A DNA stretch of 54,173 bases from a virus. Positions 2,857-51,371 of this stretch are shown in pieces. The stretch is taken from positions 1 to 54,173 of the IMG/VR virus record IMGVR_UViG_3300033153_007345; one strand, 5' to 3'. The position numbers and the translations under genes are program-made. The notes under the pieces are model-generated. The model saw nothing but the letters and a program-made list of their open reading frames with translations. It did no database searches and was not told where the DNA came from. The stretch's first letter is position 1. Each line of letters opens with the position of its first letter.

Positions 2857-3130
2857 AAGCCTGCCTAAGACATGGGCAGTCAAAATCCAACAAGCGTCAA
2901 TCGTGGGTACCCCAGATATCTTAGCTTGTGTGGCTGGGCATTTCATTTCCTTGGAGCTAAAACGGGACGATAAAGCCAAGACCACACCGATCCAGGACTA
3001 CAATCTCAAAAAAATAAAAGAGGCTGGCGGTAAGACCTACGTGGTCACACCAGCTAATTGGGACGAGGTGTTTGCGGAGTTGAAGAGCCTGGTGCAGGCT
3101 CCTCGGCCCTCGCTGCGAGATCCTTCTTGA
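2807..3130 (+). CDS. VRR-NUC domain endonuclease (107 aa)
   Basis: A single PD-(D/E)XK nuclease domain of the phage VRR-NUC type. I see GTPDILA with D37, then a strand carrying E50-L-K52, and Q63 in the following helix; the C-terminal AGGKTYVVTPANWDEV strand is typical. This family cleaves DNA junctions or flaps. The length fits stand-alone phage members. It overlaps the RHH gene upstream in another frame and runs 77 bp into the convergent gene at 3054-3293, so its Pro/Arg-rich C-terminus is probably dispensable. Confidence 0.85.
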   Translation: MRPKESTLKKKVLLQLKSLPKTWAVKIQQASIVGTPDILACVAGHFISLELKRDDKAKTTPIQDYNLKKIKEAGGKTYVVTPANWDEVFAELKSLVQAPRPSLRDPS

Positions 3131-3293
3131 TAGCGTCGTACTTCAGCTTCAGCTCCGAGTTCCTAGTGGCCATCCTGTCCATCTCTTTCACGATACGGGC
3201 AAACTGCTTCTCGGCCTTTTCCTTCTTGGCAGACCGATTGATAATCCAACCAAGCAACATGATTACAATACGTCCAACCATTCCCCAAGCCAT
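3054..3293 (-). CDS. Putative i-spanin-like small membrane protein (79 aa)
   Basis: An N-terminal membrane span (about residues 3-19, WGMVGRIVIMLLGWIIN) is followed by a long charged coiled coil (residues 22-64) and a Pro-rich end. This is the layout of inner-membrane spanin subunits, which act with an outer-membrane lipoprotein in the last step of lysis of Gram-negative hosts. The gene is the last of the late operon, has a strong AGGAGG site, and lies next to a lipoprotein and the endolysin. A holin accessory is the alternative. No family match is recognised. Confidence 0.5.
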   Translation of the reverse strand: MAWGMVGRIVIMLLGWIINRSAKKEKAEKQFARIVKEMDRMATRNSELKLKYDAIKKDLAARAEEPAPGSSTPQTPRPN

Positions 3294-3305: not shown

Positions 3306-4034
3306 TTAGTTTCGTCTGCCGTGCCTGCTGCCACTGCTTTGGTTACTGGGTTTGATGACGTGCAGCAAAATGTCCGTGTACCCAAATACCGTGAGGCGAT
3401 GGTATGTTTTGGCTTCTGGTGCATAGAACACATGCGAGCAGACACCTTCAAGCAATGGTACAAGGAATGTTTTTTCATCTTCTGTCACGACCTCAGGACA
3501 ATTACCTATGTACGAGTCTACCAGTACTTTCTGTTGGAAACTGATCTGTTGCAACAGACCTACCCGAGATTGGCAAAGTGACACCCCTACGTTGTTTTCC
3601 TTGGTGCCATTGCACTTTACAACAGCGGGCAGTGTCTCATTGGTGATCTCGATCATTCCCGAGGCATGTTGCCCTTGAACATCGAAAGCGCCGATGTAGA
3701 TAGGGCAGAACCCATCACCTTCCATATCTGGCTGTAGATCAAACTCGAACGTGTGCTCCTTGCGAGAACGCCAGCCCTCTTTCTCTACAGGGATCTCCCT
3801 GTGGCACGTCATGAGCTTGATCAACTCCATACGGTCATCTAGCTTTAGTTCAATCTTGTAGTGCACAGTCTTGGGGACGACCATGGTACCACGTCTAGGA
3901 TGGCCGTTTACCTTCATATTTAGGGTTTTTTTGTATGTGGGGACATCATCATTAGTAGAGGAAAAATTTTTGGCATCTTGTGCAGTACAAGATGCCAAAA
4001 GAACAGAACTATACAAGATTGTCTTCAGCATCAT
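3306..4034 (-). CDS. Putative outer-membrane lipoprotein in the lysis module (242 aa)
   Basis: The N-terminus (MMLKTILYSSVLLASC) is a classic lipoprotein signal with lipobox LLASC, so the mature protein would begin at Cys16. The rest is soluble with several Cys (CHRE, FCPIY, VKCNG, LCQS, NCPE, VCSH), probably disulfide-bonded after export. The C-terminus is Ser/Arg-rich. The start overlaps the endolysin stop (TATGATG). It lies between the endolysin and a spanin-like gene, so an outer-membrane spanin partner role is possible, but it is much larger than usual o-spanins. Superinfection exclusion is another option. Confidence 0.6.
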   Translation of the reverse strand: MMLKTILYSSVLLASCTAQDAKNFSSTNDDVPTYKKTLNMKVNGHPRRGTMVVPKTVHYKIELKLDDRMELIKLMTCHREIPVEKEGWRSRKEHTFEFDLQPDMEGDGFCPIYIGAFDVQGQHASGMIEITNETLPAVVKCNGTKENNVGVSLCQSRVGLLQQISFQQKVLVDSYIGNCPEVVTEDEKTFLVPLLEGVCSHVFYAPEAKTYHRLTVFGYTDILLHVIKPSNQSSGSRHGRRN

Positions 4035-4483
4035 AGCACCCTTCTGTACCCGAGTACTCTAGATTTTTTGTACTTATTGATCCCAACTTTGTTGCTCTGA
4101 TTTCCACCGAGGCATATAATGTAGTCACCGTCTTCCCGAACGAAGAACGCAACGTGGCCTTTCCAACTTTTTGGGCTAGACCTCCAAAATACCACAACGT
4201 CTCCTTCCTTCGGTTTTTTTATTTTTCTGCCAATTTCCAACCAAGACCTAGCTGCTGCGCTTCGGGTGGACGGTACCCCTACTCGCTCATGGCACCAACA
4301 GACAAACGCACTACACCAGGCGACTGAGTCTTTGTGGTACTTAGCTTTCAGAGAGGTTTCCTTGTGGTACTCGACAATCCTTGGATTGTCTTTAGCACCA
4401 AGTACCTCTCTGATCCCCACCTCTTTCAAAGCCATATCATAAGGGCTGGCGGGGATCTCTTGTTTGCAGCATTGGCAAATCAT
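4031..4483 (-). CDS. Endolysin-like cysteine peptidase/amidase (CHAP/NlpC-P60-like, TIGR02594 type; 150 aa)
   Basis: The core matches TIGR02594-type proteins: VAWCSAFV with catalytic Cys57, a GDVVVFWR strand, GHVAFFV with His110, then LGGNQSNKV with Asn128 and an LGYRR end. These proteins cleave peptidoglycan stem peptides or amide bonds, so this is the best endolysin candidate. There is no signal peptide, so a holin would be needed. The N-terminus has a small Cys cluster (C3, C5, C6). It is coupled by ATGA overlaps to the genes on both sides. Confidence 0.8.
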   Translation of the reverse strand: MICQCCKQEIPASPYDMALKEVGIREVLGAKDNPRIVEYHKETSLKAKYHKDSVAWCSAFVCWCHERVGVPSTRSAAARSWLEIGRKIKKPKEGDVVVFWRSSPKSWKGHVAFFVREDGDYIICLGGNQSNKVGINKYKKSRVLGYRRVL

Positions 4484-4764
4484 GCCTCTTCTTTCTTCAC
4501 AAACACGTCAGCGATGTCAGAAAGACCAATCATCATAGATTTGTAAAAAGCAACCTTGTTCTCCTCCAGCTCCTCGCCCAAATCTGTCGCTGCCGTAATC
4601 GCTGGCAAAAGATCAGTGATACTGGATGTCATAATCCCAGGTAGATCATCTCCCGCATCCCATCCACCATTGTCTTTCACTTCAGCAACTATCGCTGCTA
4701 CGAACTTGGCCACGCCACTTGCCACTGCATATGCACTATCTGATACTTCTACTTCCACTTTCAT
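4480..4764 (-). CDS. Hypothetical lysis-module protein (94 aa)
   Basis: An acidic, mostly helical protein (starts MKVEVEVSDSAYAVASGVAKFV) with no clear membrane span. Similar proteins occur beside lysis genes of other phages, but I know of no function. It has a strong AAAGGAG site and an ATGA overlap with the endolysin gene. Confidence 0.65.
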   Translation of the reverse strand: MKVEVEVSDSAYAVASGVAKFVAAIVAEVKDNGGWDAGDDLPGIMTSSITDLLPAITAATDLGEELEENKVAFYKSMMIGLSDIADVFVKKEEA

Positions 4765-4812
4765 CTCAAACTCCTTTATAATGAATGGGGTAACAACTAC
4801 GATGAGGTTAGC

Positions 4813-4992
4813 ATGAATAAACTTTACGCTGAAGTAGTTAAGCTCCTTCTCCCAGTTCTCGTAGGTGTCATGGCTTGGTTCACGAATGACATAGCTACTT
4901 CAATCAATGCGATGAAGAACAACCAAGTCAAAATGAACCAGAAACTATTGCTACTTGATGGCGTTCATTCTGCCACGAAACCAGAAAACTGA
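4813..4992 (+). CDS. Orphan plus-strand small membrane protein, holin candidate (59 aa)
   Basis: This short frame runs against the surrounding late operon. It encodes an N-terminal membrane span (residues 5-23, YAEVVKLLLPVLVGVMAWF), a short polar helix and a soluble tail. The ATG has an ATGAGG site 6-7 bases upstream. There is no competing minus-strand gene in 4765-4964. Its 3' end overlaps the convergent 4965-5201 frame by 28 bases. Size, topology and position next to the endolysin fit a class III-like holin or holin regulator, but opposite orientation is unusual. Confidence 0.5.
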   Translation: MNKLYAEVVKLLLPVLVGVMAWFTNDIATSINAMKNNQVKMNQKLLLLDGVHSATKPEN

Positions 4993-5201
4993 TTCTGTAC
5001 AATGAGATCGCAAGCGAAGATCTTCTCAATCTGGAATTGTGGGGAGTCTTCCGCCTCGACCCACTCGGTATCATGGTCAGATAGGCAAGCGTCTATTGCC
5101 GGTTCAAAATCACCCGTATATCGAGCTAGCACGCCCTGATATAGAGCATTGTGATGGTCTCGCCTTGCTAGCTCCTGGAGGCGCTTAAACGCTTGTCCCA
5201 T
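4965..5201 (-). CDS. C-terminal part of a split secreted protein (78 aa)
   Basis: This frame continues the protein encoded at 5185-5787, whose C-terminus it overlaps by 17 bases in the other frame. The predicted helical stretch (QAFKRLQELARRDHHNALYQGVLARYT) reads as the natural continuation of a phage protein family in which both parts are one chain of roughly 270 residues. It has an ATG but only a poor ribosome site. Either the gene is broken by an indel, a +1 frameshift joins the parts, or translation restarts here. Confidence 0.55.
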   Translation of the reverse strand: MGQAFKRLQELARRDHHNALYQGVLARYTGDFEPAIDACLSDHDTEWVEAEDSPQFQIEKIFACDLIVQNQFSGFVAE

Positions 5202-5787
5202 TTAAGGCAATTCTCAAGACTAATAAATGGGCATGAAACCCCTCAAGACCGCTTGGATAGCTGCTGGGGAGTAGAATATTCAAATCCGAGTCGCCACCCA
5301 TCTTTTTGATTGCTCTGAATAATGTGCCGATCATATTTGGTGTGTAGTAGACTCGGCCATCTGCGAAGGGCTCTCCCATCTTCCAATTTTTCTTCTTGCC
5401 ATAGTTGCCATGCTCGACCAGGTTGTCTAGGTTCCCAGTGCGGAACATCCAGAACATGAACCCAAGGCCCATATCTCTAGACCAGGTGGTCTTGGATCCT
5501 AGGTCTTCTCCGTTGGCCCAACAAGGAACTGGTCTCCTGCCCCAACGGCCTTTCTCAAGCTTCGCAGCATCGACATTTCCGCCACCAACTACCGCTCGGT
5601 ACTTGCCTTCCCAGAGCATGGCGTCACAGCCATCGACTACCCAGCCGTGGTCATTCTCTTCGAGTTCCGACTTGAGGCGTTCGATCTTGGCTTGCACCAG
5701 CTCCATTTTGTCTGTGGGCTCTGGGTCTTGAGCTTCGACGGTTGAGCATGAGACGAATGCTAGGAATGAGAAGAGTAGTGTTTTCAT
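5185..5787 (-). CDS. Exported phage protein, N-terminal part of a split gene (200 aa)
   Basis: The N-terminus is an export signal (MKTLLFSFLAFVSCSTVEAQ), either a lipoprotein signal at Cys14 or signal peptidase I cleavage after VEA. A coiled coil (residues 27-45) precedes a conserved domain with VDGCDAMLW, TWSRDMGLGFMFWMF and an NWKMGEP...YYTPNM block, seen in other phages without known function. The frame ends in LNGTSV at a GUU UAA G sequence; the rest of the family domain lies in the +1 frame (4965-5201). An AAGGA site precedes the ATG. Confidence 0.65.
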   Translation of the reverse strand: MKTLLFSFLAFVSCSTVEAQDPEPTDKMELVQAKIERLKSELEENDHGWVVDGCDAMLWEGKYRAVVGGGNVDAAKLEKGRWGRRPVPCWANGEDLGSKTTWSRDMGLGFMFWMFRTGNLDNLVEHGNYGKKKNWKMGEPFADGRVYYTPNMIGTLFRAIKKMGGDSDLNILLPSSYPSGLEGFHAHLLVLRIALNGTSV

Positions 5788-6376
5788 GTTGGTGGTTCCT
5801 TAGTTTATCGAACTCGTATTGCGTAAAAGAACACGTCAACCGTAGTTTGTAAGTGTCGGACGAACTTATATTTAGAGAAACCGAGCCCGACACGTGCGGG
5901 TAGATCGTGGTGACATTTGGTTGGTTAATGCCTACAAAGAACGAACCTCCTGCAAGTGCAGTATCCCCACTATCTGTAACTGCGACACGGGCATAAATAT
6001 TGGCCGCCCCCCCAGAACTATTTTCTATGCTAATTGTAGCTCCCCATTTTATCTCCCACTGTCCCGCTGTCAGAGCTATTGATGCTCCATTGACATCGAC
6101 CGGAGTATCTGCAACTGACGTGTTTGTATTAGATGTAATACTAGCCGCAATCCTCTCGCCTATTTCCCCAGCAGCAGCAGCACTTCCATCGGTAACACCT
6201 TTAGCTTCAAGATTACCCGTTGGCCCATCTATGACAATCGGGCATTTCTCAACGCCACCATCGTTAACGCAGAGCTTCAAGTCTTGATCTAGTGCCCTGT
6301 TGGGCAATGTCTTTGAGGTCTGTCCGATAGCTATGCTCGATGAGAAGAGTATGGCTAGTGATATTAGGTATTTCAT
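5651..6376 (-). CDS. Exported tail-fibre-like protein with C-terminal frameshift (241 aa as read)
   Basis: A signal peptide (MKYLISLAILFSSSIAIGQ, cleavage after AIG) is followed by a linker and a beta-rich domain (GVTDGSAAAAGEIGERI to about residue 170) that resembles the C-terminal module of the 6937-9858 protein. As read, the last 50 residues are an Arg-rich run overlapping the next gene by 137 bp. In the -1 frame the sequence ends VFFYAIRVR then stops at 5805-5807, just before the next ribosome site, which matches the aromatic/Arg ending of its paralogue. The true gene is probably 5805-6376, about 190 residues, with an indel near 5825-5860. Confidence 0.6.
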   Translation of the reverse strand: MKYLISLAILFSSSIAIGQTSKTLPNRALDQDLKLCVNDGGVEKCPIVIDGPTGNLEAKGVTDGSAAAAGEIGERIAASITSNTNTSVADTPVDVNGASIALTAGQWEIKWGATISIENSSGGAANIYARVAVTDSGDTALAGGSFFVGINQPNVTTIYPHVSGSVSLNISSSDTYKLRLTCSFTQYEFDKLRNHQHENTTLLIPSIRLMLNRRSSRPRAHRQNGAGASQDRTPQVGTRRE

Positions 6377-6386
6377 GGTGTTCTCC

Positions 6387-6890
6387 TTAGTCTAATGTGT
6401 AGTGTCCCTGAAGGAACATTACTTTCTGTCCCGTAAAAGTAGCGGCCTGTATGAAAGTTACCCTCACGGAATCCGTTGAGGGTGTGATAGCACTAAAAAA
6501 GCCTGGTGTGATTCCTGCGAACTCAACGTGCAGTGTGGCCACAGCTTGAGCTCGGGTAGAGAAGTCAGTTTTTCTAACAATTGGCAATGTGAGATCGAAA
6601 GTACCAGTTGAGGTACTGGTTTTGTCCCCAAGAACACGACCCCAAACAGTTACTCGGTTGCCCTGTCTGAAATAGTGACCTTCAATCCAAGTTACACTTA
6701 TAAAATTAACTGCATTTGAAATAGTAGCTGTCCACTCACCCTCTGATTCTGGTGATACCATAACAAATGATTCTTCGCCTCTAACACTAGCCGTTAGATT
6801 CCCATCCGCATCAGTCCTAAGCGACTGCACATTTCCAGCAAAAGCACTGCCTGCTAGTAGCAAGGATAGTGCTGTGAGTATCTTTTTCAT
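6387..6890 (-). CDS. Exported tail-fibre-type domain protein (167 aa)
   Basis: A textbook signal peptide (MKKILTALSLLLAGSAFAG, cleavage after AFA) precedes a beta-rich domain with WTATISNAVNF, then GHYFRQGNRVTVWGRV and a GTFDLTLPI strand. This Y-x-R-x-G-x-x-V-x-V-x-G pattern is common in domains of phage fibres and receptor-binding proteins. A Sec signal on a fibre-like protein is unusual because virion proteins assemble in the cytoplasm. It is the second of four adjacent genes with export signals. Confidence 0.65.
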   Translation of the reverse strand: MKKILTALSLLLAGSAFAGNVQSLRTDADGNLTASVRGEESFVMVSPESEGEWTATISNAVNFISVTWIEGHYFRQGNRVTVWGRVLGDKTSTSTGTFDLTLPIVRKTDFSTRAQAVATLHVEFAGITPGFFSAITPSTDSVRVTFIQAATFTGQKVMFLQGHYTLD

Positions 6891-6936
6891 TTGGTTCTCC
6901 TTTGGTTCATTTCTAGGTTAGAGAAGAGTAATAGTT

Positions 6937-9858
6937 TCAGCGTCGCCTGCGCGCGAAAAACTTGTAGTTTACCGGGGTATCAAAGTTCGCTCCCTGCGCC
7001 TTAACTTTCCCATAGAAATTGTCTGCCACTGAAATGCTAGTTCGGTAATGGACAATTCCCGAGCCACCTATAGTTCCGTTCGTGGCGAACATCCCAATCG
7101 TGTAGTTGTCAATTTGTTCTGTTGATACAGTACTATTCCCAAGAGAAATTGACATCAGTTGCCCGGTACTAGAAGCATTCGCATCTCCATTGGAGTTCAC
7201 GAAAAACGATATGTCCCAATCTCCTGGAGGCAGTAGCAAGGCACTGGTGACTACAAACGCCGTGGTTACAGGCGTAAAGGAACCGATAATTTCAATGTAC
7301 TTACCGATATCGCCATCTGATGCAGAACTTCCATCATCAACACCAACTATCCCACCAGCAGGAATAATCGAGTCATTGAACGTCTTAGCCCCTCCAAACG
7401 TCTGCGCTACAGTTGTCACTGTCCCATTGGTAGTAGCATCGGCCGCAGGCACAGACAAAGCTATTGGAGCGCATGATGCTTCCAACTCAACCCTATGGGT
7501 ACCATCTATCGTGAGGGAGCTAAGGTCACAGGTCATTGTAGTATCGTCAGCAGAACAAAGACGATATGTTTTGTCCCAAGCGCCTGCGAGAGTAGCGCCT
7601 TCATGTCGCACGTAGGCGTCTTTTGGAGTACACCCAAGGTTATGCGTCTGTACACCAGGATCACTTGACTTTATGCCTGAAGTGAAAGTCTTGATTGGCA
7701 CCACATTCGTCGAGAACCCTGTATCTCGCATCTTAGTAGATATGGAGCTCCCTGCTGGTAGCCCTGTGCTCAGGAAGATGGAATCATTGGTAGAGTCAAG
7801 CAACCAGTCTGGAGAGAGCTGGTTGTTGATCTTGCCGTCCTCACGGCCCCAGCGAGATGCTGACCAGTCTTGATTCTCTATCGCTACGCTGACAGAGGCG
7901 AAGTCTATTCTTGCTGCTGCTAGCTTGCGGATGTCTTCTTCTGAGAATACATGGTTTTTGGCATAGTCAACACTTTGAACCCTACCAAAATAGTCATCTG
8001 AATAAGTCCCATCCCTTCTTGCCCCTACCATGAATTTGGTAGTAGCTGACCAATTGAGAGTACCCGCCAAAGGCTCGGAAATGACACGGACACCATCAAA
8101 ATATGCCTTTGCCCGGACTCCATCCCAAGTGAAACCCACATGGTGCCAAGAGCCGCTGATTGCATTAATAGGCGCAGAAAAAAGCTCTGTTCCAGACGTT
8201 GTTTCCGTCATTATCTGCAACTCACCCGCAATAGTTACTCGCAAGTTCCAGCCTGAAATAGAAGCCGAGTCAGTCAAAGATATTAGTGTTTGATTAGCAG
8301 CATCACCCCACTCAGCAGGAGCGAACAACCCGCTAAAGCTCAAGGTATCATCTACTGTTATTTGTAGATCAGCATCGGCAGACTCAAACCGCTCATTGAC
8401 AGCGCCATCATTCAAATACCCAACGTTTGCTTCACCGAAAATACCCAGATGCGTGAAAGTACTACCGCTAGAATCGGTTAGTGGCTTTCCATTTCCAGAC
8501 CCATCACTAAAGTCACCATCAAGCAAGTTCCAATAGTAGACTTTCCCAGTTAGGTCATCCAAAGGAAATGAGTCATCAGTCAGCACATGGCCGCCAGCTA
8601 CTTGCTGGTGGTTCGAGAAACGCTTGGAGTAGATGGCGTTGATCTGGGCTGCTGATAGCTCAGAATCAGTAAAGAAAAAATCTTGAAGTGACCCATCCAC
8701 ACGTTGCCCGGCTGAAGGCAATCCTCCGATTATGAGAGGACCTGTTCCTGTTTCGGTACCACAAGTCCCCGAAGCGACTGCTTGGCCGTTTATATGTAGC
8801 GTTACAGCGCTCCCGGCTGGGGAAGTTAGAGCAAGGTGAAGCCATTCCCAGTTCGCAAAGCCATCGTACTCAAAGGCTATGGCAGAAGCAGAATCAGAAC
8901 CACAGTTGACACGGATCTCTTTCACATTCTCTACAACCTGAATACCATATTCGAGATTTGCACCGTCGTATCGACTGAACAAGAATTGACCAGTAGAGTC
9001 AGGACCAGCCCAATCCAGCGAAGCCGAAATTCCTACAGAAAATGCTGCTGTACTAGGGTTGTCTACTTTAAAGAAAGCGTTCGAAGAGTTGAATTCACCA
9101 TCTTTGTGGAAAGAGACAACGTTCTCTCTACCAAAAAATCCTTTGCCCGTGTAAGAGACTGTCCCGCTTTCTGCTAAATCACCTCCTTGTACGGCGTCAT
9201 TTAAAGCATCACCAGCTAAGGGGAAATATGCCGAATCTGCAAACGTGATATCTCCATCAACCAACGGACCCTTGGCATTTGCAACAGATCCAACCGTGCC
9301 TATAGACCGCTCAATATTGTAGACAATGGGGTTGATATTGACCGATTGATCTAGGACCCTACCGACAAAGAAGCTATCCATGTAGATGATGGCAGCGTCT
9401 GCTGAAGCAATGACCCTTACTCCTAGAGTTCCACTTGATGGGCATGTGAAATTGAGTTGCACCCTAGACCAAGTAGTAGCTGTTACCACATCGAATTCAC
9501 TAAGGACCGATGAACCGTCCCAAGCTTGGATCTTGAGGTTGCCATCGCCACCCTTGTAGGCCCAGGAGACGACACACGCCTGCCCAAGCATCTCGTTTGG
9601 GATATCCTGCTGGGTTGAGCTCAAAGTCTGAGCCGCCGCACCAGCATCCCAGGATCCACTTGATTCCCCAAGGGCGAGATTGACACCAGAGGTCACGGTA
9701 TCAAACGTTCCGCCAGATGCCGACCACCGGGATTCCCCGTTTTCAAACCCGCCGTTCTCAATGATCGTGGTGGTTCGTAAATCTTGTTCCTCCACTCCAA
9801 AGAACGCACCCATCGCATGGGATGACATCAAGGATATGGCTAATAGTATTTTTTTCAT
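6937..9858 (-). CDS. Exported LamG/CBM-like adhesin or tail-fibre protein (973 aa)
   Basis: Signal peptide (MKKILLAISLMSSHAMGA), then a jelly-roll domain resembling carbohydrate-binding modules (about 30-170, with GGFENGESRW), two LamG/concanavalin-A-like domains (about 225-415 and 445-640, the second with SWHHVGFTWDGVRAKAYFDG), a linker, and a C-terminal beta module (about 845-973) ending in KFFARRRR. Such domains bind sugars, so host-surface recognition is likely. The gene lies between tail-tip and lysis genes where fibres usually sit, but the Sec signal implies export. It may be a displayed adhesin, or the N-terminus may be an assembly signal. Confidence 0.7.
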   Translation of the reverse strand: MKKILLAISLMSSHAMGAFFGVEEQDLRTTTIIENGGFENGESRWSASGGTFDTVTSGVNLALGESSGSWDAGAAAQTLSSTQQDIPNEMLGQACVVSWAYKGGDGNLKIQAWDGSSVLSEFDVVTATTWSRVQLNFTCPSSGTLGVRVIASADAAIIYMDSFFVGRVLDQSVNINPIVYNIERSIGTVGSVANAKGPLVDGDITFADSAYFPLAGDALNDAVQGGDLAESGTVSYTGKGFFGRENVVSFHKDGEFNSSNAFFKVDNPSTAAFSVGISASLDWAGPDSTGQFLFSRYDGANLEYGIQVVENVKEIRVNCGSDSASAIAFEYDGFANWEWLHLALTSPAGSAVTLHINGQAVASGTCGTETGTGPLIIGGLPSAGQRVDGSLQDFFFTDSELSAAQINAIYSKRFSNHQQVAGGHVLTDDSFPLDDLTGKVYYWNLLDGDFSDGSGNGKPLTDSSGSTFTHLGIFGEANVGYLNDGAVNERFESADADLQITVDDTLSFSGLFAPAEWGDAANQTLISLTDSASISGWNLRVTIAGELQIMTETTSGTELFSAPINAISGSWHHVGFTWDGVRAKAYFDGVRVISEPLAGTLNWSATTKFMVGARRDGTYSDDYFGRVQSVDYAKNHVFSEEDIRKLAAARIDFASVSVAIENQDWSASRWGREDGKINNQLSPDWLLDSTNDSIFLSTGLPAGSSISTKMRDTGFSTNVVPIKTFTSGIKSSDPGVQTHNLGCTPKDAYVRHEGATLAGAWDKTYRLCSADDTTMTCDLSSLTIDGTHRVELEASCAPIALSVPAADATTNGTVTTVAQTFGGAKTFNDSIIPAGGIVGVDDGSSASDGDIGKYIEIIGSFTPVTTAFVVTSALLLPPGDWDISFFVNSNGDANASSTGQLMSISLGNSTVSTEQIDNYTIGMFATNGTIGGSGIVHYRTSISVADNFYGKVKAQGANFDTPVNYKFFARRRR

Positions 9859-9860
9859 GG

Positions 9861-10709
9861 TTACTCCACCTCGGTTCCGTTGGGGATAAATCGAATGTCA
9901 GCCGTATCAGTATCAGTTGCCCGAGACAACTCAACTTTGATCAAATCACCAGGGCTTACACCTACACTGTTGATCTCACCCGAAGCGTCCGTTAGATCAC
10001 AAACAGTTTCTCGGTATTTGTTTGCAACCCCTGAATTAGCAAGGGCTGAATTTGTGCTGGTATGCTGGTTTGTGGTGCTTCCCATCCCGTCTAGACCCTC
10101 TCGGATGAGAGTTGAGACGGTCTCTAGGCGGATTGTGTTGATTGTCGATGGAGAGTAGAGAGCTATCCTCATGTTGATCTGGACCCCAGCGATGTACCCT
10201 TGAGGAACCTTGACGAAAGCAACCAGGCTGTTGGCTAGGCCACTCTCATACATGTAGATGAGTTGATCATTCTCAGATCCTTTTACCGGAGCACTCCCTG
10301 GCGGCTCGTCCCAGTTGAGACTCCCACCCCCACCGCCGCCAGCTCCAGAGCCAAGGTTCATGACCATGGCGATGGTCTTAGGACCACCAGAGCTGTTGGT
10401 TACGGTCACCGCTGTCTTCTCCGAGCCCACTTTAGCAATGGTCGTGAAGCCAGATGTGAGCTGAGAAATGAGCTCCCCTGTACCATCATCGTACTCGTAA
10501 AGGGTAAACCCCAAATCTGCAAAGTCTACGTTGAAGTTGTGGGTGAAGTCCACGCTGCCACTATCTGCCAGAGCAACCGCTGTGAAGAACCTTCCGTTGA
10601 TGTTGTCACCAACAGATGTCCACAAACCTTCGACAGAAGCATGCAGAGGTGCCCCACCAGCTGTTCCAAGCGCTGGGTGATCTAATTGTAATCTAGAAAC
10701 TGTACCCAT
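9861..10709 (-). CDS. Putative tail-tip/fibre protein (282 aa)
   Basis: No named family is recognised. The N-terminal half is beta-rich, a Gly stretch (GSGAGGGGGGS, about residues 121-131) acts as a hinge, and the C-terminal half is again beta-rich. There is no signal peptide, unlike the next four fibre-like genes. A GGGAG site precedes the ATG. Position downstream of the tail hub genes suggests a baseplate-distal or fibre-connecting structural protein. Confidence 0.6.
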   Translation of the reverse strand: MGTVSRLQLDHPALGTAGGAPLHASVEGLWTSVGDNINGRFFTAVALADSGSVDFTHNFNVDFADLGFTLYEYDDGTGELISQLTSGFTTIAKVGSEKTAVTVTNSSGGPKTIAMVMNLGSGAGGGGGGSLNWDEPPGSAPVKGSENDQLIYMYESGLANSLVAFVKVPQGYIAGVQINMRIALYSPSTINTIRLETVSTLIREGLDGMGSTTNQHTSTNSALANSGVANKYRETVCDLTDASGEINSVGVSPGDLIKVELSRATDTDTADIRFIPNGTEVE

Positions 10710-10721
10710 GTCACTTCTCCC

Positions 10722-11129
10722 TCATTTTCCATAGGTTGCGAGATTGAGCTTCTTTTCCTCTTCTTTCAGAGGCGTCACTATAATCTCACCCGTATCAAAA
10801 ACCTTTATCCGCTTTTCCGATGTCCACATCTCAAGACCAACCAGCTGGTGTATGGGCGTAACCGTCCCAATGTTGAAACCTGAGCCCGGTCTAGCTATCG
10901 CCATCCAAGAAAAGTTCCGAAACTTATCAGCTGGACAGTCTACGAGTAATACAACCTGTTGAGTTTCCAGATCCTTGCCTTCGATCTTCATTCGCACAGC
11001 GCCAGAGTTTTTGTTCCATGCCTGGTCCACGGGGTTTTTTGTCGTAAGTGACCACATCCCACAGGCACTCTGCTTGCTGGGGTAGTCAAACCGCCACCTA
11101 AGACGAAATTTTCTTGGTTTATTCAGCAT
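10722..11129 (-). CDS. Hypothetical tail-region protein (135 aa)
   Basis: No family is recognised. It has a basic N-terminus (MLNKPRKFRLRWRFDYP) and a beta-rich remainder (QQVVLLVDCPADKFRNFSWM), ending with a Lys/Glu-rich tail. It sits between two tail-tip genes in the late operon and is probably a small virion or assembly protein. Confidence 0.6.
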   Translation of the reverse strand: MLNKPRKFRLRWRFDYPSKQSACGMWSLTTKNPVDQAWNKNSGAVRMKIEGKDLETQQVVLLVDCPADKFRNFSWMAIARPGSGFNIGTVTPIHQLVGLEMWTSEKRIKVFDTGEIIVTPLKEEEKKLNLATYGK

Positions 11130-11136: not shown

Positions 11137-11883
11137 TCAGGCTGTATAGCTGAAGGCTATGACCCATTCCCATTGGACAATGCCTCCGTTTGCAAAGGAC
11201 CCTAGCAACTGGGATCGAAGCCCAATGTGCATATTATCCCCCAGTGCCGTATCGCCATCCTTACCAATCTGACCATCCACTGGTGCTGTCGGGATGTAGC
11301 CGTTGGTCACATCGCCACCTTGTGCCTGATCCGAGTCTATCACCATAGCCTCTGAGGCTGTTATGATTCCGTTAGCCAAGGAAGAGCCTTGCCCAGTAGC
11401 AGCACCTCCGGCCCTACCGTAAATCTCTACCGTGTCGTCGCCACCCTCGCCTACGCCGTTTGTGGCAAAATCAAACTGGTTGGCCTGGTTGCCAACCTCG
11501 GCGTTGATCGACTTGTGGTCGATCCAGAGACCGCCAGAGAGGTCATCGGCGTTGTTCTTGGATGTGCCAGAGACATTTCCAAGCGTTGTGAGCATAGTTG
11601 TGATGTCGTTTGCGGCTGTATCAGCACCCCCGTAGGTGAATCCAGTGCCCACTCCGAATGTCTGGAGGAATGTTTTCACATCGGTGATGGGGTCTATGGT
11701 CGCATCGTGCCTAACCCACACATCTTGCCTGCCCGAGTTATCGGCTGGGCCTCCTCCACCAATAGGAGCATAGCTCCCGTTGATTACTGAGCCTAAATCG
11801 ATTCCTGTGCCTCCACCAGCTAGACTGTCACTAGCGGCAGCACCATCTAAACCAAGATCTGAAACTGTAAGCAAAACTGTCAT
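11137..11883 (-). CDS. Putative tail structural protein (248 aa)
   Basis: Gly/Ala/Thr/Asp-rich, low in Lys and Cys, and beta-rich, as in many phage tail-tip proteins. Starts MTVLLTVSDLGLDG; the C-terminus ends in aromatic strands (GGIVQWEWVIAFSYTA). I do not recognise a named domain. Its place next to the hub gene supports a distal tail role. Confidence 0.6.
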   Translation of the reverse strand: MTVLLTVSDLGLDGAAASDSLAGGGTGIDLGSVINGSYAPIGGGGPADNSGRQDVWVRHDATIDPITDVKTFLQTFGVGTGFTYGGADTAANDITTMLTTLGNVSGTSKNNADDLSGGLWIDHKSINAEVGNQANQFDFATNGVGEGGDDTVEIYGRAGGAATGQGSSLANGIITASEAMVIDSDQAQGGDVTNGYIPTAPVDGQIGKDGDTALGDNMHIGLRSQLLGSFANGGIVQWEWVIAFSYTA

Positions 11884-11894: not shown

Positions 11895-13856
11895 TTATTC
11901 TTCGACTATGGTTGCAGTGGTACCGCCCGTTATACCCTCATGCCCCGGTGCGTATCCCGGAAAAGGAAGCATTTGGAAGCTCCATAACCTCATTGGTATC
12001 TTAATCCCTGCGGGATCATAACTAATCTGCCTAATTAAGCATGGAACATTGGTAAATAGTGTACCTTGTATGTTCACATTTAGTTTAACAAAATCACCGA
12101 TGTCTAGCAGCAGCGATCTCCAGGTCAGGTTGACATTCACGTTCTCTAGGTACGCCGATGTCAATCTCAGAATTTCACCAACCTGATTCTTAACCGTAGT
12201 ATTATCATAAAGATTTGGAAATACTACTCTTTTTGAGATTTCCCTTCCTGCTTGCGTAATCGCCAGTGTGTTCTTCTGTACCCTCGTCTCCTGGAAGTTC
12301 TCCTTGCGACTGGGTAAAAAGTTGAATTGGCCCTTCGCTCGGTTGAAGTTGTTTCGTTCGTCTAGTTTGAGTTTGAAGCTTTTCTGCTCAACATCCCAGT
12401 TCTTTATTTGGTATGCGGGAGACGCTTCGAAGTCATCCAGGTGGTTAGACAGAATTTGTAGCTTCTGTGATCTGTTCAGAAACACCTCAAGCCTCACCTG
12501 CTCAAGCAGTGAGAGAATAAACGTGAGTGCGCTCTGAGCTTCGTTTATGTAGATCCTGCTCAGAAAGTCACCTACGGCATTCTCTATGGAAGCCCCGCCG
12601 CTCACCGTTTTGTCTCTGAATGTGTCCCAGTTTGCTGCAAAATCACCCAAGGAAGCATCCGTGTACGTGGCTAGGATATCACGGGACTGCTCGATGATGT
12701 TGTCATCGTACCCACTCAGGTCTTTTCCCTTCACTTTCACCAGCACCATATCGGAGCTTTCGAACGCATACACCTGATCGGTGGTGTCTACTGTAATCGC
12801 CAGCATGCTGTTTGAATTTTGGGCTATTTGGAAATTGTTCTTCCCTGCGGGCACTGCGGAGATATCCGCTGCATCAACTCGCCATGCTTTCTCACCCCTT
12901 CGGATGTAGACCTCAGAGGTATCGAACGCTGTATTGTCGTTCGCAGAGATCACCACCTGGGTATTGTTGGTCCTGGAGGTGTCGCCGTTCATGTCGGCGT
13001 CTTTTCCATTGACCACAGTGCATGGGATGCTTGCTAGATTGGGCTCGACGTTGACTGTCCAATCACCATAGATGATGGGGATGAGTGCATTTTCTTTGTC
13101 AGACTCTATATTCGCATACGAGGATACTGCAAATATCTCAGAGGGGAAGCTGGCATTGATCTTGTCAAAGTCATCTCTTGCGAGGAAGGAGATGTCTGTT
13201 ATCGACCGTTTGAATCCTGCCTCTTCAGTAATCTTCCCGCTAAAAATGATCTTGTAGGTGGACCCAACGTCCCTCAGCCCAAGCTTTACAGTAATTTGGT
13301 TGCCTATCCATCCTGAAAAGTCATCCCCAGCTGGTAGGTACTTATTGTATTTCCCATCTGCGTTATTCAGAGTCAGCTCCTGGCTGGAAAACTCCAGCTG
13401 GGCACTCAGAAACTCCCCCACCGTTCGACTAATGACTGGGAAGTTGAGACGGGCCTCGTAGTACACCCCGTCTACATACTTGTTCCGGTCTGAAACGTGG
13501 ATGGTTCTCTCCGCAGACAGATCAAGCGTCCCTAGGGGGGATACAGCGCTTCCCTTGTCAAATCTAAGCCTACCTAGCCCAGGTACAGATGTGATTGTCT
13601 GGACCCCATCTAAGCCAGCGTCAGAGGCACTAGAGATAGTGATTGTCTCACCTGTTTTGAGACCATGCTCTGAGATAGTCACTTCCACAATATTGGCACT
13701 GGGGTTGGTGTACGCCAGCCATGTTCTGGATAGGGTAGGTGCCTCGATATCGACGATAAGCTCCAGCTGATTCACGAGTGAATCGTGGCACTGATCAAGA
13801 AAATCTTGATCAAGCACGGTAGCTGTTAGATATGGCCGTCGATCACTGTTGCCCAT
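11895..13856 (-). CDS. Tail hub / tail-tip (tail-associated) protein (653 aa)
   Basis: The size and beta-rich, mixed alpha-beta composition, the position after tape measure and distal-tail genes, and C-terminal features (VNLTWRSLLLDIGDFVKLNV and a Pro-rich end) fit siphophage hub proteins that form the baseplate core below the tail tube. Central residues include a helix-rich segment (AQSALTFILSLLEQVRLEVFLN). No enzymatic motif is visible. It abuts the upstream gene by one base. Confidence 0.65.
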   Translation of the reverse strand: MGNSDRRPYLTATVLDQDFLDQCHDSLVNQLELIVDIEAPTLSRTWLAYTNPSANIVEVTISEHGLKTGETITISSASDAGLDGVQTITSVPGLGRLRFDKGSAVSPLGTLDLSAERTIHVSDRNKYVDGVYYEARLNFPVISRTVGEFLSAQLEFSSQELTLNNADGKYNKYLPAGDDFSGWIGNQITVKLGLRDVGSTYKIIFSGKITEEAGFKRSITDISFLARDDFDKINASFPSEIFAVSSYANIESDKENALIPIIYGDWTVNVEPNLASIPCTVVNGKDADMNGDTSRTNNTQVVISANDNTAFDTSEVYIRRGEKAWRVDAADISAVPAGKNNFQIAQNSNSMLAITVDTTDQVYAFESSDMVLVKVKGKDLSGYDDNIIEQSRDILATYTDASLGDFAANWDTFRDKTVSGGASIENAVGDFLSRIYINEAQSALTFILSLLEQVRLEVFLNRSQKLQILSNHLDDFEASPAYQIKNWDVEQKSFKLKLDERNNFNRAKGQFNFLPSRKENFQETRVQKNTLAITQAGREISKRVVFPNLYDNTTVKNQVGEILRLTSAYLENVNVNLTWRSLLLDIGDFVKLNVNIQGTLFTNVPCLIRQISYDPAGIKIPMRLWSFQMLPFPGYAPGHEGITGGTTATIVEE

Positions 13857-15382
13857 TACTTGCTCTCATCCAATGTTAAGCCAAAGCTTGCGAAGTCGTA
13901 CTTAGGACCCTTGCTATTGTGCCTCTCTTTGGGGATTTTATCTATTTTCGAGAATGCAGCAAACCTTGCCGTAAACTCAGCATCGTTAATGTCTGGTGTT
14001 GGTATCCAAAGGCACTTCAGAGTGGTTCGCTTTTCTTGGAAGATCGCTTTCAGGATACCGTAGTTGCCTTGAGTGAACCCAAGACTCTTGAAATCAAGCC
14101 CCACAATCTTTTTCTGCGCCCTGGAGTTGGCAATATTCGTGAAGCCCTCAGTATTCACAGTATCAGCAAAGTCCTTGTTCTCCAGGTCTATGTTGTCGGT
14201 GATGCACTCGCCCGAGAACACACTAGAAGCACCAAATACTATTGTTCCAATCTCCACAGTATCGCTATTTGTGGAATCATCTATGGATACTCTCCAATAC
14301 CTGTACCCGGTAATAGGTAAGTTCTCCTCGATATGATAGATGTTGGGCTCATCTATGAGAGTCAGCACCCTAGTCACACCGATGGTCCCAAACGATGAAT
14401 CGTTAGACCCAAATAGCTGGACACTGGCCGATTTAGTCAGGTTGTGATTCAGTATCGCAAGGGTATCCAAGAACACCCCTTGAGTGAGCTCCGTATCGCA
14501 ATCTAGATTGATGCCCGACTTGGCTGTAGCAGCCTGCCACGTCTGCACAACAACATCCGTATTCAGGTTTTCGATGTTTTTGTCTGGGCCAGTATCAGTA
14601 ACTACGTTGGCTTTCCAGTTTTTGCCTACCCCAGCATCGTTACCCCAGGCATTTGTTCCTGTAGCCTCTGGGTTACCCCTGCTTAGGAACGTGCAGAGTA
14701 TCCGAAGGTTGGTGGTGTTGTAGAGAGTGGCTAGGAACTGCATGCCTGTAGCAGCAACTTGCGCAAAGTCAACCTGCATACCCAAGTAATCGAGGACGCC
14801 AGTCATTGTGAATTTGGTTTGCATGCCGTTGAAGGAGTCATCATCGGGACCAATGATGTTGAACTCGTTCTGCATGGCGGTGAAGTCTTTACCAACGATA
14901 AAGAACTCCATCTGCATACCCATGAATGCACACATGTACGACGACAGGTATGGGTTCTGTAGGTATGGAGTGTTCAGGTATGACGAGTGGAGCTTGTGGC
15001 TGAGAGAGTCCGCTTTGAACTCCATAGCTGCTAGCTTCTCAGTATCTTCAATGACGAAGTTCGTTTGAACTCCCGACAGTTTGAACGTACCTTCAATGTC
15101 AAAATTGGACTGCATGGCGTTGAAGGAGTCATCACCATCGGCAATGATGCTGAATTCTGTCTGCATCCCAGTATCTTTGTCAGCCTCAATAGTGAATTCG
15201 ACTTGCATCCCAGTATCTTTGTCAGCCTCGATGGTGGATTCGGCCTGCATCCCCGTCTGTTTAGCTGACTCGATAACAAAATTTATCTGCATGCCGTCAA
15301 CAGCATGCTGATCAGACTTCAGATACTCGCCTGATAGGTATGGCCGCTCAAGGTATGCTTTTAGGTTAGTGTGGGTCGTCAT
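13856..15382 (-). CDS. Tail-tip protein with GMQ repeats and a discoidin-like domain (508 aa)
   Basis: Residues about 30-235 carry ten to eleven repeats of 12-17 residues with consensus [GA]-M-Q-x-x-F-x-I, interrupted by two copies of a YL-x-x-PYL-x-x-x-YL motif (near residues 10-20 and 140-152). Residues about 240-390 look like a discoidin/galactose-binding jelly roll (NLRILCTFLSRG, DTLAILNHNLT, YRYWRVSIDD), and the rest is mixed. Comparable proteins occur at the distal-tail position of other phages. It lies directly after the tape measure gene, so a distal tail protein is likely; the repeat domain has no known role. Confidence 0.65.
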   Translation of the reverse strand: MTTHTNLKAYLERPYLSGEYLKSDQHAVDGMQINFVIESAKQTGMQAESTIEADKDTGMQVEFTIEADKDTGMQTEFSIIADGDDSFNAMQSNFDIEGTFKLSGVQTNFVIEDTEKLAAMEFKADSLSHKLHSSYLNTPYLQNPYLSSYMCAFMGMQMEFFIVGKDFTAMQNEFNIIGPDDDSFNGMQTKFTMTGVLDYLGMQVDFAQVAATGMQFLATLYNTTNLRILCTFLSRGNPEATGTNAWGNDAGVGKNWKANVVTDTGPDKNIENLNTDVVVQTWQAATAKSGINLDCDTELTQGVFLDTLAILNHNLTKSASVQLFGSNDSSFGTIGVTRVLTLIDEPNIYHIEENLPITGYRYWRVSIDDSTNSDTVEIGTIVFGASSVFSGECITDNIDLENKDFADTVNTEGFTNIANSRAQKKIVGLDFKSLGFTQGNYGILKAIFQEKRTTLKCLWIPTPDINDAEFTARFAAFSKIDKIPKERHNSKGPKYDFASFGLTLDESK

Positions 15383-18300
15383 TAGCTTCTAATCCCCCTG
15401 CTAGAAATCAAGAAATCCCCTCGGAGGCTTGCTTGCTTCAGTTCATCCTTGACCGCAGGTATGACCCTCGTTCTCATGAATTGCTCATCCACTGGCTCTG
15501 TTGTCTCAATTTCCATAGCCACTTCGATGTTGAACGTGTTGCCAGCGGTAGATTTGCCCAAGTTCGCCTGCTCTAGTATGTTGAGCCCGAGCCCCTGGAC
15601 ACCAGTCCTATTTACTACAAATTCACCCGGCTGTAGTAGGGATTGTGTCCCATCCTCGGAGGAGAAGCCGCCTACAAGCCCGCCCGTCTTGCCTCTGAGT
15701 ATGCTTGCGGAGCTCTCGATCATTTTGAGTAGCGAGCTTTTGATGTGCTTCATGATCTCTTTTTTAGGATCAAGCGTATCAACTAGACCTGTGACATCTT
15801 TTGTAACGCTTTCTACTGATACATCACCTCCACCGCCACCTGTACTATCTTTGTACGCTTTAGAAATAGCCCTTCCAATAGACCCGCCATATCCAAACTG
15901 CGGCATGTTGCCGCTTACAAGAGTTTCAAGGAGCTTGGCTATTTGTGGGTCCTGAGCTATGGACCTGGGGACGATGAACTCGCCAGGGCTTGCTAGGATA
16001 GGAACCGTGTCATTTTTCAGTGAGTCACCGGGTATACCAGCAAGCCCTGGTATCTCACCACCTCTGGCGAACTTCACAAAGGGTACGTTAACGCCAATGA
16101 GCTTCTCTACAGGACCCTTGGCTCCTGAGTCCCCAGATGTACTGAACAGCTTGGATAAAAGATTGCTTGGGTTCAGGCTGTTGAATGCCTCCTTGAATAT
16201 GTCTCCGAGCCCTGAGAGACTCGATTTGAGCCCCTCCCACATCTTGGTACCAAAGTCCGTGAATATGCTGCCAGCAGTATCCAGGCCAGCCTTGAGGCTC
16301 TCCCATATCTTGCTGCCCATGTTCTTAAGTGCTGCTATTGGCTTATCCCAGGCCAGCTCCACTATTTTGGAGAATGAATCCTGGAAGAAGTCAATCGCTC
16401 CTTGGAATGCTTCCTTGATATTCCCTTTGAATATACTTTTGAAGAAATCCTGCGTTGCTGCGAAGGCGTCTGTTACCAGCTCCTTCAATCCATTGAATGT
16501 GTCTATGATCGGATCAAATGCAGCTGTCGTTAGGCCACCAAATGTGTCCTTGAAGAAGCTGACAATCGGATCCCATGCTGAAGATACGAGTGTTGACCAG
16601 GAGTCCTTGAAGAAGTTGACAAACACCATCGCAGTGTCTGTGAAGACTTTGAATACTGATTCCAAAATCGGCCCGAAGGTATCCTTGATGAAGCCCATGA
16701 ACTTTTTGAAACCAGCGAAGACAAAATCAAAGGCACTATGAACGATTGATCCCAGCGTGGTGAATAGATTTATCACCACAGCAAACGCCTCTTGCACAAT
16801 CTCACCGAGTGTTTCAAATAGATGCAACACTCCATGCCATGCATCTCCTATAAGATCACCAAATGCTTCGAAGAAGTCGATAATGAACTCCCATGCGCCC
16901 TTGATGACCTCTGCAAAGTTTTCGAAGAAAGCGATTATGGCATCCCAGGCCCTCTTGACCAATTTCACGAAGCCCTTCCAGAACTTCATAACCTTTGCCC
17001 ACGCCCTACTCAGCAAATTAGCACCTATCGTGAACGATTCTCTGATTTTCTTCGCTATTTTCTCAGCTTGCTTTGCTGGGTCCAGGGCAGCACCAGCCTC
17101 CCCGAAATCCTTAACACTAAAGAGCTTGGAAGCCTCGCCAGTGATCTTGTCTAGCCCCGATTTGAACCCCTCAGAGATGGCAGCACCAGCCTCTTGTAGT
17201 TTGCTGGTGGGGAACTCAACACCTCCGAGTATATTATTAAGCGCCTTTTTCAGTCCGTTGATCACCCCTTTGATTATTGCAATGACAATCATGGGCACTA
17301 ATTTTGCGAACGCCAGGGCAATCTTCTCAAGCCCCCCACTCATTGCCACGTCGATTAGGGCAGCTACAATGGAGCCCATTGCATCTATAAGGCCCTCGAT
17401 AATTGCCCCTATGATGTCCGGCAAGGCTTCAAGTAGATTAATAAGCAAGTCCGGTATGATACTGATTATGCCCGCTATGATCTTTCCAAGAGCGGAGAAG
17501 ATTTTCATGATTATGGTAGGCATAGACTCAAGCAGCTGAGCAAAAATTGCCGGCAGAGCATCCAGGATCTGCATAATAAGCCCTGGAAGCATATCCAGGA
17601 GCTTGCCTAAGCCGTCTACGAGCGCACTGATAAACTTAGGGATCATAGCGATGATCCCGTCTATAATTTCAGGCAGCTTGTCTAGAAGTTTACTGAAAGC
17701 TTCCACAAATTGATCGATGAACTTATCCATGCTGCCCATGAGCTTGTCGAAAGCTTTGAGCAAAGCGTCTGGGAGTTCAGTCAGCATGTTGTCGATGGTG
17801 TCGGCTAGGCCACTTATGGTTTCTGGGCTGAACATATCACCAATAAAGTCACCAACGGCCATTATCCCCGATGCCATAGACTTGCCAGCCGATACGAGGT
17901 TTTTTTGGGTGAACATGTCCTTGCCAATCTCCTTCAGATTGGAGCCAATTACAGACATATTGTCCATGAACCCTACGCTCAGGTCCACCCCTTGGAATAC
18001 CTCTTCCCCTACTCGGAATGCTTCTCTGAGTTGTAATCCAGCCTTTGTAAAACTCTGGAATAGCCCTTTGATGACCTCTCCGCCAAAGTTCCGAGGCTTG
18101 AGATTAGAGAATACTTTGTCGAATTGGTTGAGGAGAGATGCCTCGTCAATTTTGACTTTTAGCTGTTCAGCCCCAGCAGTTTTTGATGCCTCAAGTATCG
18201 CCTTGTTGGCTTCAGTGAGTAGTCCCGAAGCAGCCAGCCGCTGTTCGAGCACGTCGAGCTGGGCAAGCTGAATGGCATACTCAGCATTAGCAAGCTTCAC

Positions 18301-21300
18301 AGTCTGGCCTGAGCCAGCTAGGTTAGCCAGGTTCAGTTTGCCTACTTGCTTCTGGAGAGACCCAAGAATCCTAGCCTGTCGTTCAAGCTTAGCATTTGCC
18401 CTGTCGAGGTTAGCCGCCTCTTTATCTGCGAAAGCATCAGCCAACTTTGCCTTTTTCAAAAGCGCCGCAGTAGCCTTTTTGGTCTGATCTGCCCTAGCTG
18501 CTGCAATAGCTACCTTGCTCTGAGCTATGATCGCTGCCTTGGCCTTGTTTATCTCAGCAGTGTGGCTTCTTCTGACAGCAACACTCTTACCCAGCAAATC
18601 AATACCCTTGCGGATAGTATCTAGGTCTTTTAGCTTCTCAGCAGTCTCTACTCTGATCTTAGCAATCACTCTGCCCTGAGCGGCAAGCTGTGCTTTTCTG
18701 GCGTCTGAGTTTATGGTCGCTGCTTGTGCAATAGCTGCGTCTCTTTTAGCAATAGCGTTGTACTCTGCCTGACTAACCTTCAGCGAAGCACTCGCAAATT
18801 TAGTCGCAACTTTGTGCAGCTCCTCGGATACTTCCTTAGCTACCTTAGCCCTCTTAATGAACCCATTAAAAGAATCAGCTGACTTTGAGAAGCTTTTCGC
18901 TATATCAACACCAGCTACCTTTTCTATAGCCTTGAAAGCTTCGCTTTTGACGGCCTTCAATTCAAATCTGGCATTTACAATTGCCTGGTTGGCCTTCTCA
19001 AATTCAGTTCCAAGAGCATTTATGCTGACGGTTGACTGACTCATATCAAGGCGCTTGGAAAAGATGCTTTGCATCTCCCTGCCTTTTTCATTTACATGCA
19101 CAAGTTGAGCAACAGTAGCCTCAGCAGCCGTAGCTGTTGAGGAGATCCCCTCAGTAACTGTAGCCCAAGCAGATTCACCAACTATCTCCAGCTCTACTAG
19201 CTGCTCGATTACCTTGTCACCCTCTTCAGTTAGTTTGACAATTTCCTCTGTACTGTCAGTAATCCAGGCTTTTAGCTTTTTCCATCCTATTATGGCTAGC
19301 TCGACAATCCTTACTGTCTTCATAAGACCTATGACCACCATTTTAGCGAGGCCAACAATCCTTCCGAACACGTTGCGGGCTATATCTCCGAGCTGCTTGA
19401 AGAAACCAGCGTTAGCTTTAGCGGATGCACCCGTTTTATCCATCTGTGGTTGTAGCTGCTTTAGTTCTTTGGACAACTCTCTGAACGCTTTAGCCAAAAG
19501 TGTAATGGACCCAATAATAAAAGCAGCTTTTAGGAATAAAGGATTAGATAAAAGCGCAAATGTAAATCGAACTATAGATGCAGTGACTGCTGTGAACCCT
19601 ACCACCAGCCCTTTGAGACCCGCTACCGTGAAAAAAGTGGATACTGTGAATGTTTTAAGTGCTGTTGCCCCTGACAGTAGCGCAGCAATAAACAATTTGA
19701 AATTCTTAGCTGCCATCACTCCCATAGCTACATTTAGTCTTACTACAGATGCTGCTGCTATGTTAATTTTTGTAGCCATACCTACAAGACCAGCTTGAGT
19801 AAATAGAAGCTGTGCTACATATGCTATGGCCGATTTGGTAGCAAGAATTGTACTGACAACCATCTTCTTAAATGCATCAGCTGCACCAGCCAACCCTACT
19901 TGTGTTAGGGCAATAAGAGCTGTTTTCAAATCAGTTACAACAGGTACTATAATATCTAGCTTTTTTGCTGCAATCCCCAGGATTGCGTTCATTCCAAATT
20001 GAAGAAAATTCAGATGCTGAATGGCTAAATTAACACCTACAATAGCAGCCTTAACTGTAGCCAGTGTGACTACAAAACTTAGGAAAATACCTAACACTTT
20101 TAGCCCAATACCGCCAAAATCAACAAACGCACTCACAGCATCGTGCACTATAGATGGCAAGTTACTAAGCATTTGGATGAACCTAGTTTGTACCTGCGTA
20201 ATTGATGCAAATAACGAGCTTTGGCTACCAAGCTTGGCTGTAAGATCCTTAGTCGCTTGCGCCAGTTGCTTCTGAGATCCGGCAATAGTATTCAATTGGT
20301 CAGCAGCGGCACCAACCAGCGGTATGGATTGCTCAAATATAGAGTTCATGACCAAAATAGCTTTTTCGTGCTTATCCAGTGCCTTGATACTAGTGCCCAG
20401 CTGATGAGCATACTTGGAATGGGATAGCGTTGCCTCATCGGTAAATAAACCAAGTGACTCGACAGCTGCCCCGTTGCCACCAAGTGCTTTAGCCACGCCC
20501 AGAGCTACCTCAGATAGCTTACGGCCAGTTGCAGCTGCAATATCGCCGGAAACTTTCAAGACCTTAGCATTTTGTTCAGCTGTAAGGCCAAGCGCAGAAC
20601 CTTCTGCTATCAATATTTTGATACTTTTCTGGATAGACGTAACACCGAAAGCAGTAGCCTCAACCATTTCTGCTATTTGTTCATTCCAGAAGGTCAGGCT
20701 TCCTGTAGCCTCTTCGCCAACAGCCTTGCCGAAACCTTTGATGACGAATGTAAACGCCCTAGTAACTGTTTCTGCTTTTACGAATGCCTTTTCCCATTCG
20801 TCCATTACCGATAGTAGCTTGTCACCTACTGCAATAGAGAAAGCTCCTAGTGCAGCTATTGCAAGTGTTAAACCAGCCGACACACTGAGGGATAAAACAC
20901 CAGCCATTTGGATTAACGACCCAGTAAAGCTGATCACTGAATTCTCTGATGAGGAAAGGTAAGATCCCAAAGCAAATAGGGATATCCCCATTGTTCCTGT
21001 TACCTCAATTAGCCCAATAATGGAGCCTTTCATAAACCCCATGTGGATAGCTGTGGATACAGCCTTAGCCCCAACTTTAACTGTGGCTTTAAGCATCGCA
21101 GCTAAGCCTTGCGCAAGCTTGGTATCAAAAAGTTTACTAAGATCGAGCCCAGTGAGTAGAAGCTTTTGGAAAGCTGGTACGAGCTTAGCGGTCACATCCT
21201 TGGCCGTTTTCACTGCGGCTACACCTAGTGACCTAATCCCCTTGTTAGCCGCCTGTAGGGTATCGTTGAGCCCTTTGCGCATGAATTTGTTAAGGTCCTC

Positions 21301-31958: not shown

Positions 31959-31983
31959 CGGCGAAGCCTCCTTGCCTAAATTA

Positions 31984-32002
31984 AATATCTTACTACAAGA
32001 TA
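31984..32002 (-). terminator. Weak hairpin between protease and capsid genes
   Basis: TATCTT/AAGATA (6 bp) with a 5-base loop, followed on the minus strand by TTTAATTT. Likely only a partial terminator or mRNA end; the capsid ribosome site follows. Confidence 0.35.
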
Positions 32003-32013
32003 CCGAATACTAA

Positions 32014-51358: not shown

Positions 51359-51371
51359 GGAGAACAGAGTA

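Follow-up and report, generated by a model that had tools for sequence, protein, structure and literature searches.

Why would a tailed phage carry export signals on its tail-fibre-like proteins, when the virions of tailed phages are assembled in the cytoplasm before lysis? The question is raised by five genes of the IMG/VR record IMGVR_UViG_3300033153_007345, an uncultured tailed phage, whose 54,173 bases were analysed as a whole and are referred to here as the window. The initial annotation had assigned Sec or lipoprotein signals to the genes at 3306-4034, 5185-5787, 5651-6376, 6387-6890 and 6937-9858, and had described some of their products as fibre-like. Our analysis supports its main unexpected point, that fibre-like proteins bear export signals, and finds it recurring across a group of related phages, in which a single-copy fibre is found both with and without a signal at the same locus.

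Signals on the five genes

The five open reading frames (ORFs) were confirmed at these coordinates, all on the minus strand. At its true start each has a basic n-region and a hydrophobic h-region leading to an AxA or lipobox site, as in substrates of Sec and signal peptidase I (SPase I) or II. Cleavage points, marked here by a slash, were assigned visually or with a rule-based script, and signals were likewise called by script; proteins with a called signal are termed exported below, in this predicted sense. SPase I-type signals open the products of 5651-6376 (MKYLISLAILFSSSIAIG/Q), 6387-6890 (MKKILTALSLLLAGSAFA/G) and 6937-9858 (MKKILLAISLMSSHAMG/A), and lipobox signals those of 3306-4034 (MMLKTILYSSVLLASC/TAQ, lipobox LASC) and 5185-5787 (MKTLLFSFLAFVSC/STVEAQ). 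A clear Shine-Dalgarno sequence lies ahead of the signal-coding ATG of 5185, 5651, 6387 and 6937; that of 3306-4034 is weak. The signal prediction proposed initially as a check was run in this rule-based version and called all five, and the N-terminal sequences and ribosome-binding sites bear the signals out. Among the other late genes of the window, from 9861 to 42000, the same script made zero calls.

The signal-coding starts also show some internal similarity. Just past the stop of 6937-9858, at 6913-6939, there is a degenerate signal start (MKLLLFSNL, then a stop) which resembles the start of the 5185 gene (5760-5786), and the regions upstream of 5651 and 6387 are 72% alike. The signal-start cassettes look as though they had been copied.

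Signals across related phages

Relatives were retrieved with the tail-tip type protein (11895-13856, minus strand; 53-69% identity in relatives), which gave 18 viral loci, and with a conserved tail-region protein (11137-11883, minus strand) that serves as locus marker and gave 40, found on related viral contigs; several contigs are shared between the two sets. Downstream of the tail tip the script called signals in 55 of 268 ORFs, and upstream of it in 3 of 191 (minimum length 80 aa for the upstream ORFs, near-identical contigs included; Fisher p=4e-11), an enrichment which argues that they are not due to chance. With the worst duplicates removed, at least one signal is found in 23/34 phages. 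Concerning individual families, 13 of the 46 members of the fibre cluster carry a signal, and none of 34 members of the neighbouring RWRFDY-type family, a conserved gene that marks the fibre locus (10722-11129 in the window, minus strand). In five records scanned in pieces there are 2-9 signal-bearing ORFs per genome, most of them among the genes for fibres, lysis and small structural proteins. Since the signals occur in unrelated contigs, an assembly artefact was rejected as their source.

The nearest relative (L002, the same as L020) keeps the order of the window: an anchored fibre without a signal, an exported CBM/fibre protein (14031-15578), two small exported proteins, and then a lipobox protein, a holin-like gene and an amidase. 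Another relative, L009, exports a 364-aa fibre that ends in an S74 chaperone domain. This tip matches 709 phage records, of which the annotated ones are tail fibres; no signal was found in nine fibre proteins sampled from six of these cultured-phage records (0/9). The genes studied here thus resemble ordinary siphovirus LamG/CBM/S74 fibres (e.g. those of Roseobacter phage CRP-212) in their domain types, their position after the tail tip and their homology to relatives' non-exported fibres, and differ from the nine sampled ones in the signal peptide.

Other signal-bearing or inserted genes were seen in the same regions. L024 encodes an exported papain-type C1 cysteine protease (18303-19408, E=1.6e-47) adjoining its fibres, and L002 a PDZ-domain protein with a signal (18985-19395, 4.6e-7) downstream of the amidase. 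Small structural-looking proteins with signals are present in L035 (16172), L042 (16935, 17300), L053 (17230, 17598) and G002 (31159-32678), and are possible exported decoration proteins; L037 has a relative of one of them without a signal. A probable homing endonuclease (NUMOD3) lies between the marker and RWRFDY genes of L002 (11838-12752), with similar ORFs in L007, L024, L041, L043 and L053.

A single-copy fibre with and without a signal

The fibre gene 9861-10709 (minus strand) encodes a short anchored fibre without a signal, for which blastp finds 30 or more relatives. Its conserved N-terminal domain (VSRLQLDHPALGT..GGA.LHASIE...) is followed by a Gly-rich linker and then by a second beta-sandwich; AlphaFold2 predicts a helix and a beta-sandwich (pLDDT 72, pTM 0.43). 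A fold search gave weak CBM22-like matches of low global TM, too weak to decide whether the anchor domain has that identity. The N-terminal domain opens the main fibre in relatives and is single copy in 16/16 records tested as well as in the window (17 records).

In most relatives the anchored domain starts directly, with no signal (e.g. MADVSRLVLTHPALGTTGGAGLHASI). In five (L026, L033, L035, L047 and L056) a signal stands directly before the same domain (e.g. MRTLFKVLFLTLVCGLLTA/HTTTTTISRSNLAHPDLGYDGGAGLHTTM); L026 is the same contig as L005, and L033 has the same protein start as L032. In four of the five, His and then Thr follow the probable cleavage point. L056 and L035, with records of 50 kb and 56 kb, have the exported anchored fibre as the sole copy found. 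In the window and L002 the fibre gene is split, with a signal on the distal part only. Based on the tree of the tip and marker proteins, the signal state has changed at least five times, all changes being forced by well-supported branches; on the tree of the anchored domain itself there are at least two changes. The changes on both trees indicate that exported and non-exported fibre modules replace each other at one locus, partly through exchange between phages.

Domains of the exported fibre-like proteins

The exported counterpart of a fibre shaft is encoded by 6937-9858 (minus strand), whose product contains, after the signal, a CBM-like domain, two LamG-type domains, a cysteine-rich domain and a fibre-tip domain. 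It matches the Laminin_G_3 profile (E=7.5e-21). Its alignment to the non-exported anchored fibre of L009/L023 covers residues 175-812, ~640 residues in all (E=6.5e-32), and that to L056's exported anchored fibre covers residues 167-838 (E=1.3e-24). Of its eight cysteines at least four are at positions kept in L002: Cys 95/139 and 768/777 align with Cys of the exported L002 protein, and the aligned stretches of non-exported homologues mostly have fewer.

The product of 5651-6376 (minus strand) combines a Sec signal, a conserved segment (QDLKLCVNDGG) and a fibre-tip domain. The segment after the signal is found only in exported proteins of L002/L020 and L049, and the tip resembles the anchored fibre of L048 (E=3.4e-9); the match to a tail-fibre profile is weak (3.4e-4). 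Its final 45 residues, which overlap the next gene in another frame, may be an artefact. The third protein, of 6387-6890 (minus strand), is small and beta-rich with the look of a fibre tip behind its Sec signal; searches of Pfam, PHROG and PDB gave no significant match and the viral scan no relative. Viral scans queried with 5185, 6387 and 6937 gave none or one weak relative each. The fibre- or LamG-type domains initially reported for three genes are therefore clear in 6937-9858 and weak in 5651-6376, while 6387-6890 is without a significant relative. Taken with their position after the tail tip, the LamG domains, the homology to anchored fibres and the synteny are those of siphovirus tail fibres.

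Lipoproteins and lysis genes

The five genes had been presented as one exported set; all carry signals, but two encode lipoproteins, one of which is probably a spanin-type lysis protein. The other, 5185-5787 (minus strand), is not fibre-like. It encodes the lipoprotein signal and the first two thirds of a phage lipoprotein from a conserved family (12-member alignment, too diverged for use in collection scans); the C-terminal piece lies in another frame at 4965-5201 (minus strand). Judging from the reading frames and the alignment of both pieces with intact relatives, the two are one lipoprotein gene broken by a frameshift, which is possibly an assembly artefact. The 5185-5787 piece has 40% identity to the members in L035, L042 and L043. 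The family is ~300 aa long and has an invariant lipobox Cys, two more invariant Cys and an SRDM-like motif; 12 of the 13 members of its cluster were called signal-bearing. The L020 member is predicted by AlphaFold2 to be all-alpha (pLDDT 78, pTM 0.79). Pfam gave nothing convincing for the family and a sequence search of PDB gave no match, the best PDB fold match (E 0.43) was not significant, and a viral search gave one homologue, itself uncharacterised. A carbohydrate-enzyme toroid was considered for the family and was neither confirmed nor rejected.

The conservation of this lipoprotein next to the fibres recalls the place of T5 Llp next to the receptor-binding protein, and by this analogy we propose that the lipoprotein may act in exclusion. 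The exclusion lipoproteins T5 Llp and Cor are likewise encoded by phage genes beside a receptor-binding gene (PMC9586334). Llp differs in being small (77 codons) and having its own promoter; the window family is ~300 aa, predicted to be all-alpha and read with the late genes, and no sequence relation to Llp was tested or found.

The second lipobox protein (3306-4034, minus strand; 242 aa) lies between a CHAP/NlpC-type endolysin without an export signal (4031-4483, minus strand; CHAP 5.4e-9, phrog_1259 5.4e-32) and an Rz-like inner-membrane spanin (3054-3293, minus strand; phrog_739 4.6e-4, with an N-terminal hydrophobic segment). Because these two genes adjoin it, it is probably an outer-membrane lysis lipoprotein. 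As in Rz/Rz1-type spanins, an Rz-like protein and a lipoprotein are thus encoded by neighbouring genes; unlike a typical Rz1, the 3306-4034 product is far longer and has no profile match above threshold (PHROG spanin, 0.063, not significant). No homologue was found among the downstream ORFs of the relatives. A small lysis-region protein (4480-4764, minus strand), placed by its position, has no Pfam or PHROG match. On the opposite strand within this minus-strand operon there is a holin-like ORF of 59 aa (4813-4992, plus strand) with a hydrophobic N-terminal segment and a GAGG-type site before its ATG.

Genome layout and source

By its gene layout the window is judged to be a siphovirus. The minus strand carries the terminase, portal, protease, major head protein, a 2,262-aa tape measure protein, tail tip, fibre region and lysis genes, and the plus strand an SNF2 helicase with an intein, an exonuclease and DNA polymerase A. 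The SNF2-type helicase (43768-46035) is split by the intein, which has a weak HNH match. Tandem low-complexity repeats (SRSWS/GLGLGL in translation) are present at 50894-51379 and, in L009, at ~21118-21523.

A nucleotide search of window positions 1-25000 against 50,697 phage records gave no match, nor did tblastn of 5185, 5651, 6937 and the tip protein against cultured phages, so function is not transferable from these. Two scans of 84,980 prokaryote genomes (GTDB) with different queries found no relative.

Explanations for the exported fibres

The explanation we favour, tentatively, is export of the fibres, followed by folding in the periplasm and addition to virions at lysis; we favour it mainly because a single-copy fibre occupies one and the same position in exported and non-exported form. 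The genes would encode the adhesive end of a siphovirus tail, produced as Sec substrates. Export of the fibre-like proteins and removal of their signals would take place during late expression; in the periplasm they would fold and partly form disulphides, and upon breakage of the envelope at lysis they would join the particles. In the window, the short anchored part (9861-10709) would stay cytoplasmic and the distal lectin-like part (6937-9858) would be exported, probably with the products of 6387 and 5651. The 5185/4965 lipoprotein may work as T5 Llp does and shield either the envelope or newly released phages against re-adsorption. Among the three functions offered initially, the exchange at one locus thus favours attachment to virions after lysis, and display and decoy action become lower-ranked rivals.

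Several points weigh against this explanation. No single docking domain is common to the exported proteins; some have the anchor and most are without it. In several phages a full-length anchored fibre without a signal is retained alongside other fibres that are exported, an arrangement in keeping with a distinct role for the exported ones. Over all fibres, exported proteins have 0.57 vs 0.32 Cys per 100 aa in non-exported ones (p=0.063) with no parity effect, and the extra cysteines are only suggestive as a disulphide signature of export. We infer from gene position that the anchored fibre is a virion protein. Neither a precedent for Sec-exported tail fibres nor a report of such genes recurring in a phage group was found in the literature searched, itself incomplete.

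If, on the other hand, the exported fibres never join virions, they could act as lectins, soluble or periplasmic, that mask receptors on the host, debris and neighbouring cells and so keep progeny from being lost by re-adsorption; the lipoprotein would do likewise from the inner side of the outer membrane, comparable to the jamming of FhuA by T5 Llp. The conservation of the largely signal-bearing lipoprotein beside the fibres, the T5 arrangement cited above, the many exported proteins without an anchor domain and the phages that retain a separate anchored fibre all agree with this; yet L056 and L035, whose sole copy is exported, would then make virions without an anchored fibre, the lipoprotein is much larger than Llp, and we consider such blocking rather unlikely. 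Display on the infected cell, with binding to other cells or surfaces before lysis, has a model in the mosaic adhesive trimers (MATs) of Bdellovibrio bacteriovorus, chromosomal surface adhesins of a predator that share an N-terminal domain of ~130 aa and include surface-exported, trimeric phage-like fibres, some of them S74-tipped (PMC10769870). The proteins studied here are similarly phage-fibre-like with signal peptides, and the L009 relative exports an S74 fibre; however, their genes sit in a phage late operon, no MAT N-terminal domain was identified in them, and PDB searches with 5651, 6387, 6937 and the L009 S74 fibre gave no MAT match (the MAT domain sequence itself was not used as a query). 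An outer-membrane anchor or secretion domain was not seen in the fibre proteins, and a lytic phage would gain little from display just ahead of lysis; we consider display very unlikely.

It is also improbable, in our view, that the hydrophobic N-termini are unused for export, either because they serve as docking segments that fit into the tail tip or because rapid folding in the cytoplasm overrides them. In favour of this reading, virions are normally assembled in the cytoplasm, the exchange of exported and non-exported forms would then amount to a change of docking peptide, and the cysteines are weak evidence of an oxidising compartment. Against this, the basic n-regions, short h-regions and AxA or lipobox sites are typical of signals and have no common sequence, and the same type of segment is found on unrelated small proteins and on true lipoproteins of the same operons.

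Returning to periplasmic maturation with joining at lysis, a broader form of it would be that virions in this group of tailed phages are completed outside the cytoplasm: exported fibres, and perhaps small decoration proteins, would mature in the periplasm and be bound only at lysis, and module swaps would gain or lose export. This is conceivable, though we regard it as doubtful. Because orthologous fibres of this group alternate between an exported and a non-exported state, periplasmic addition to the virion and flooding of the surroundings with soluble adhesins become directly testable against each other, and either outcome would alter the annotation of receptor-binding proteins in metagenomes.

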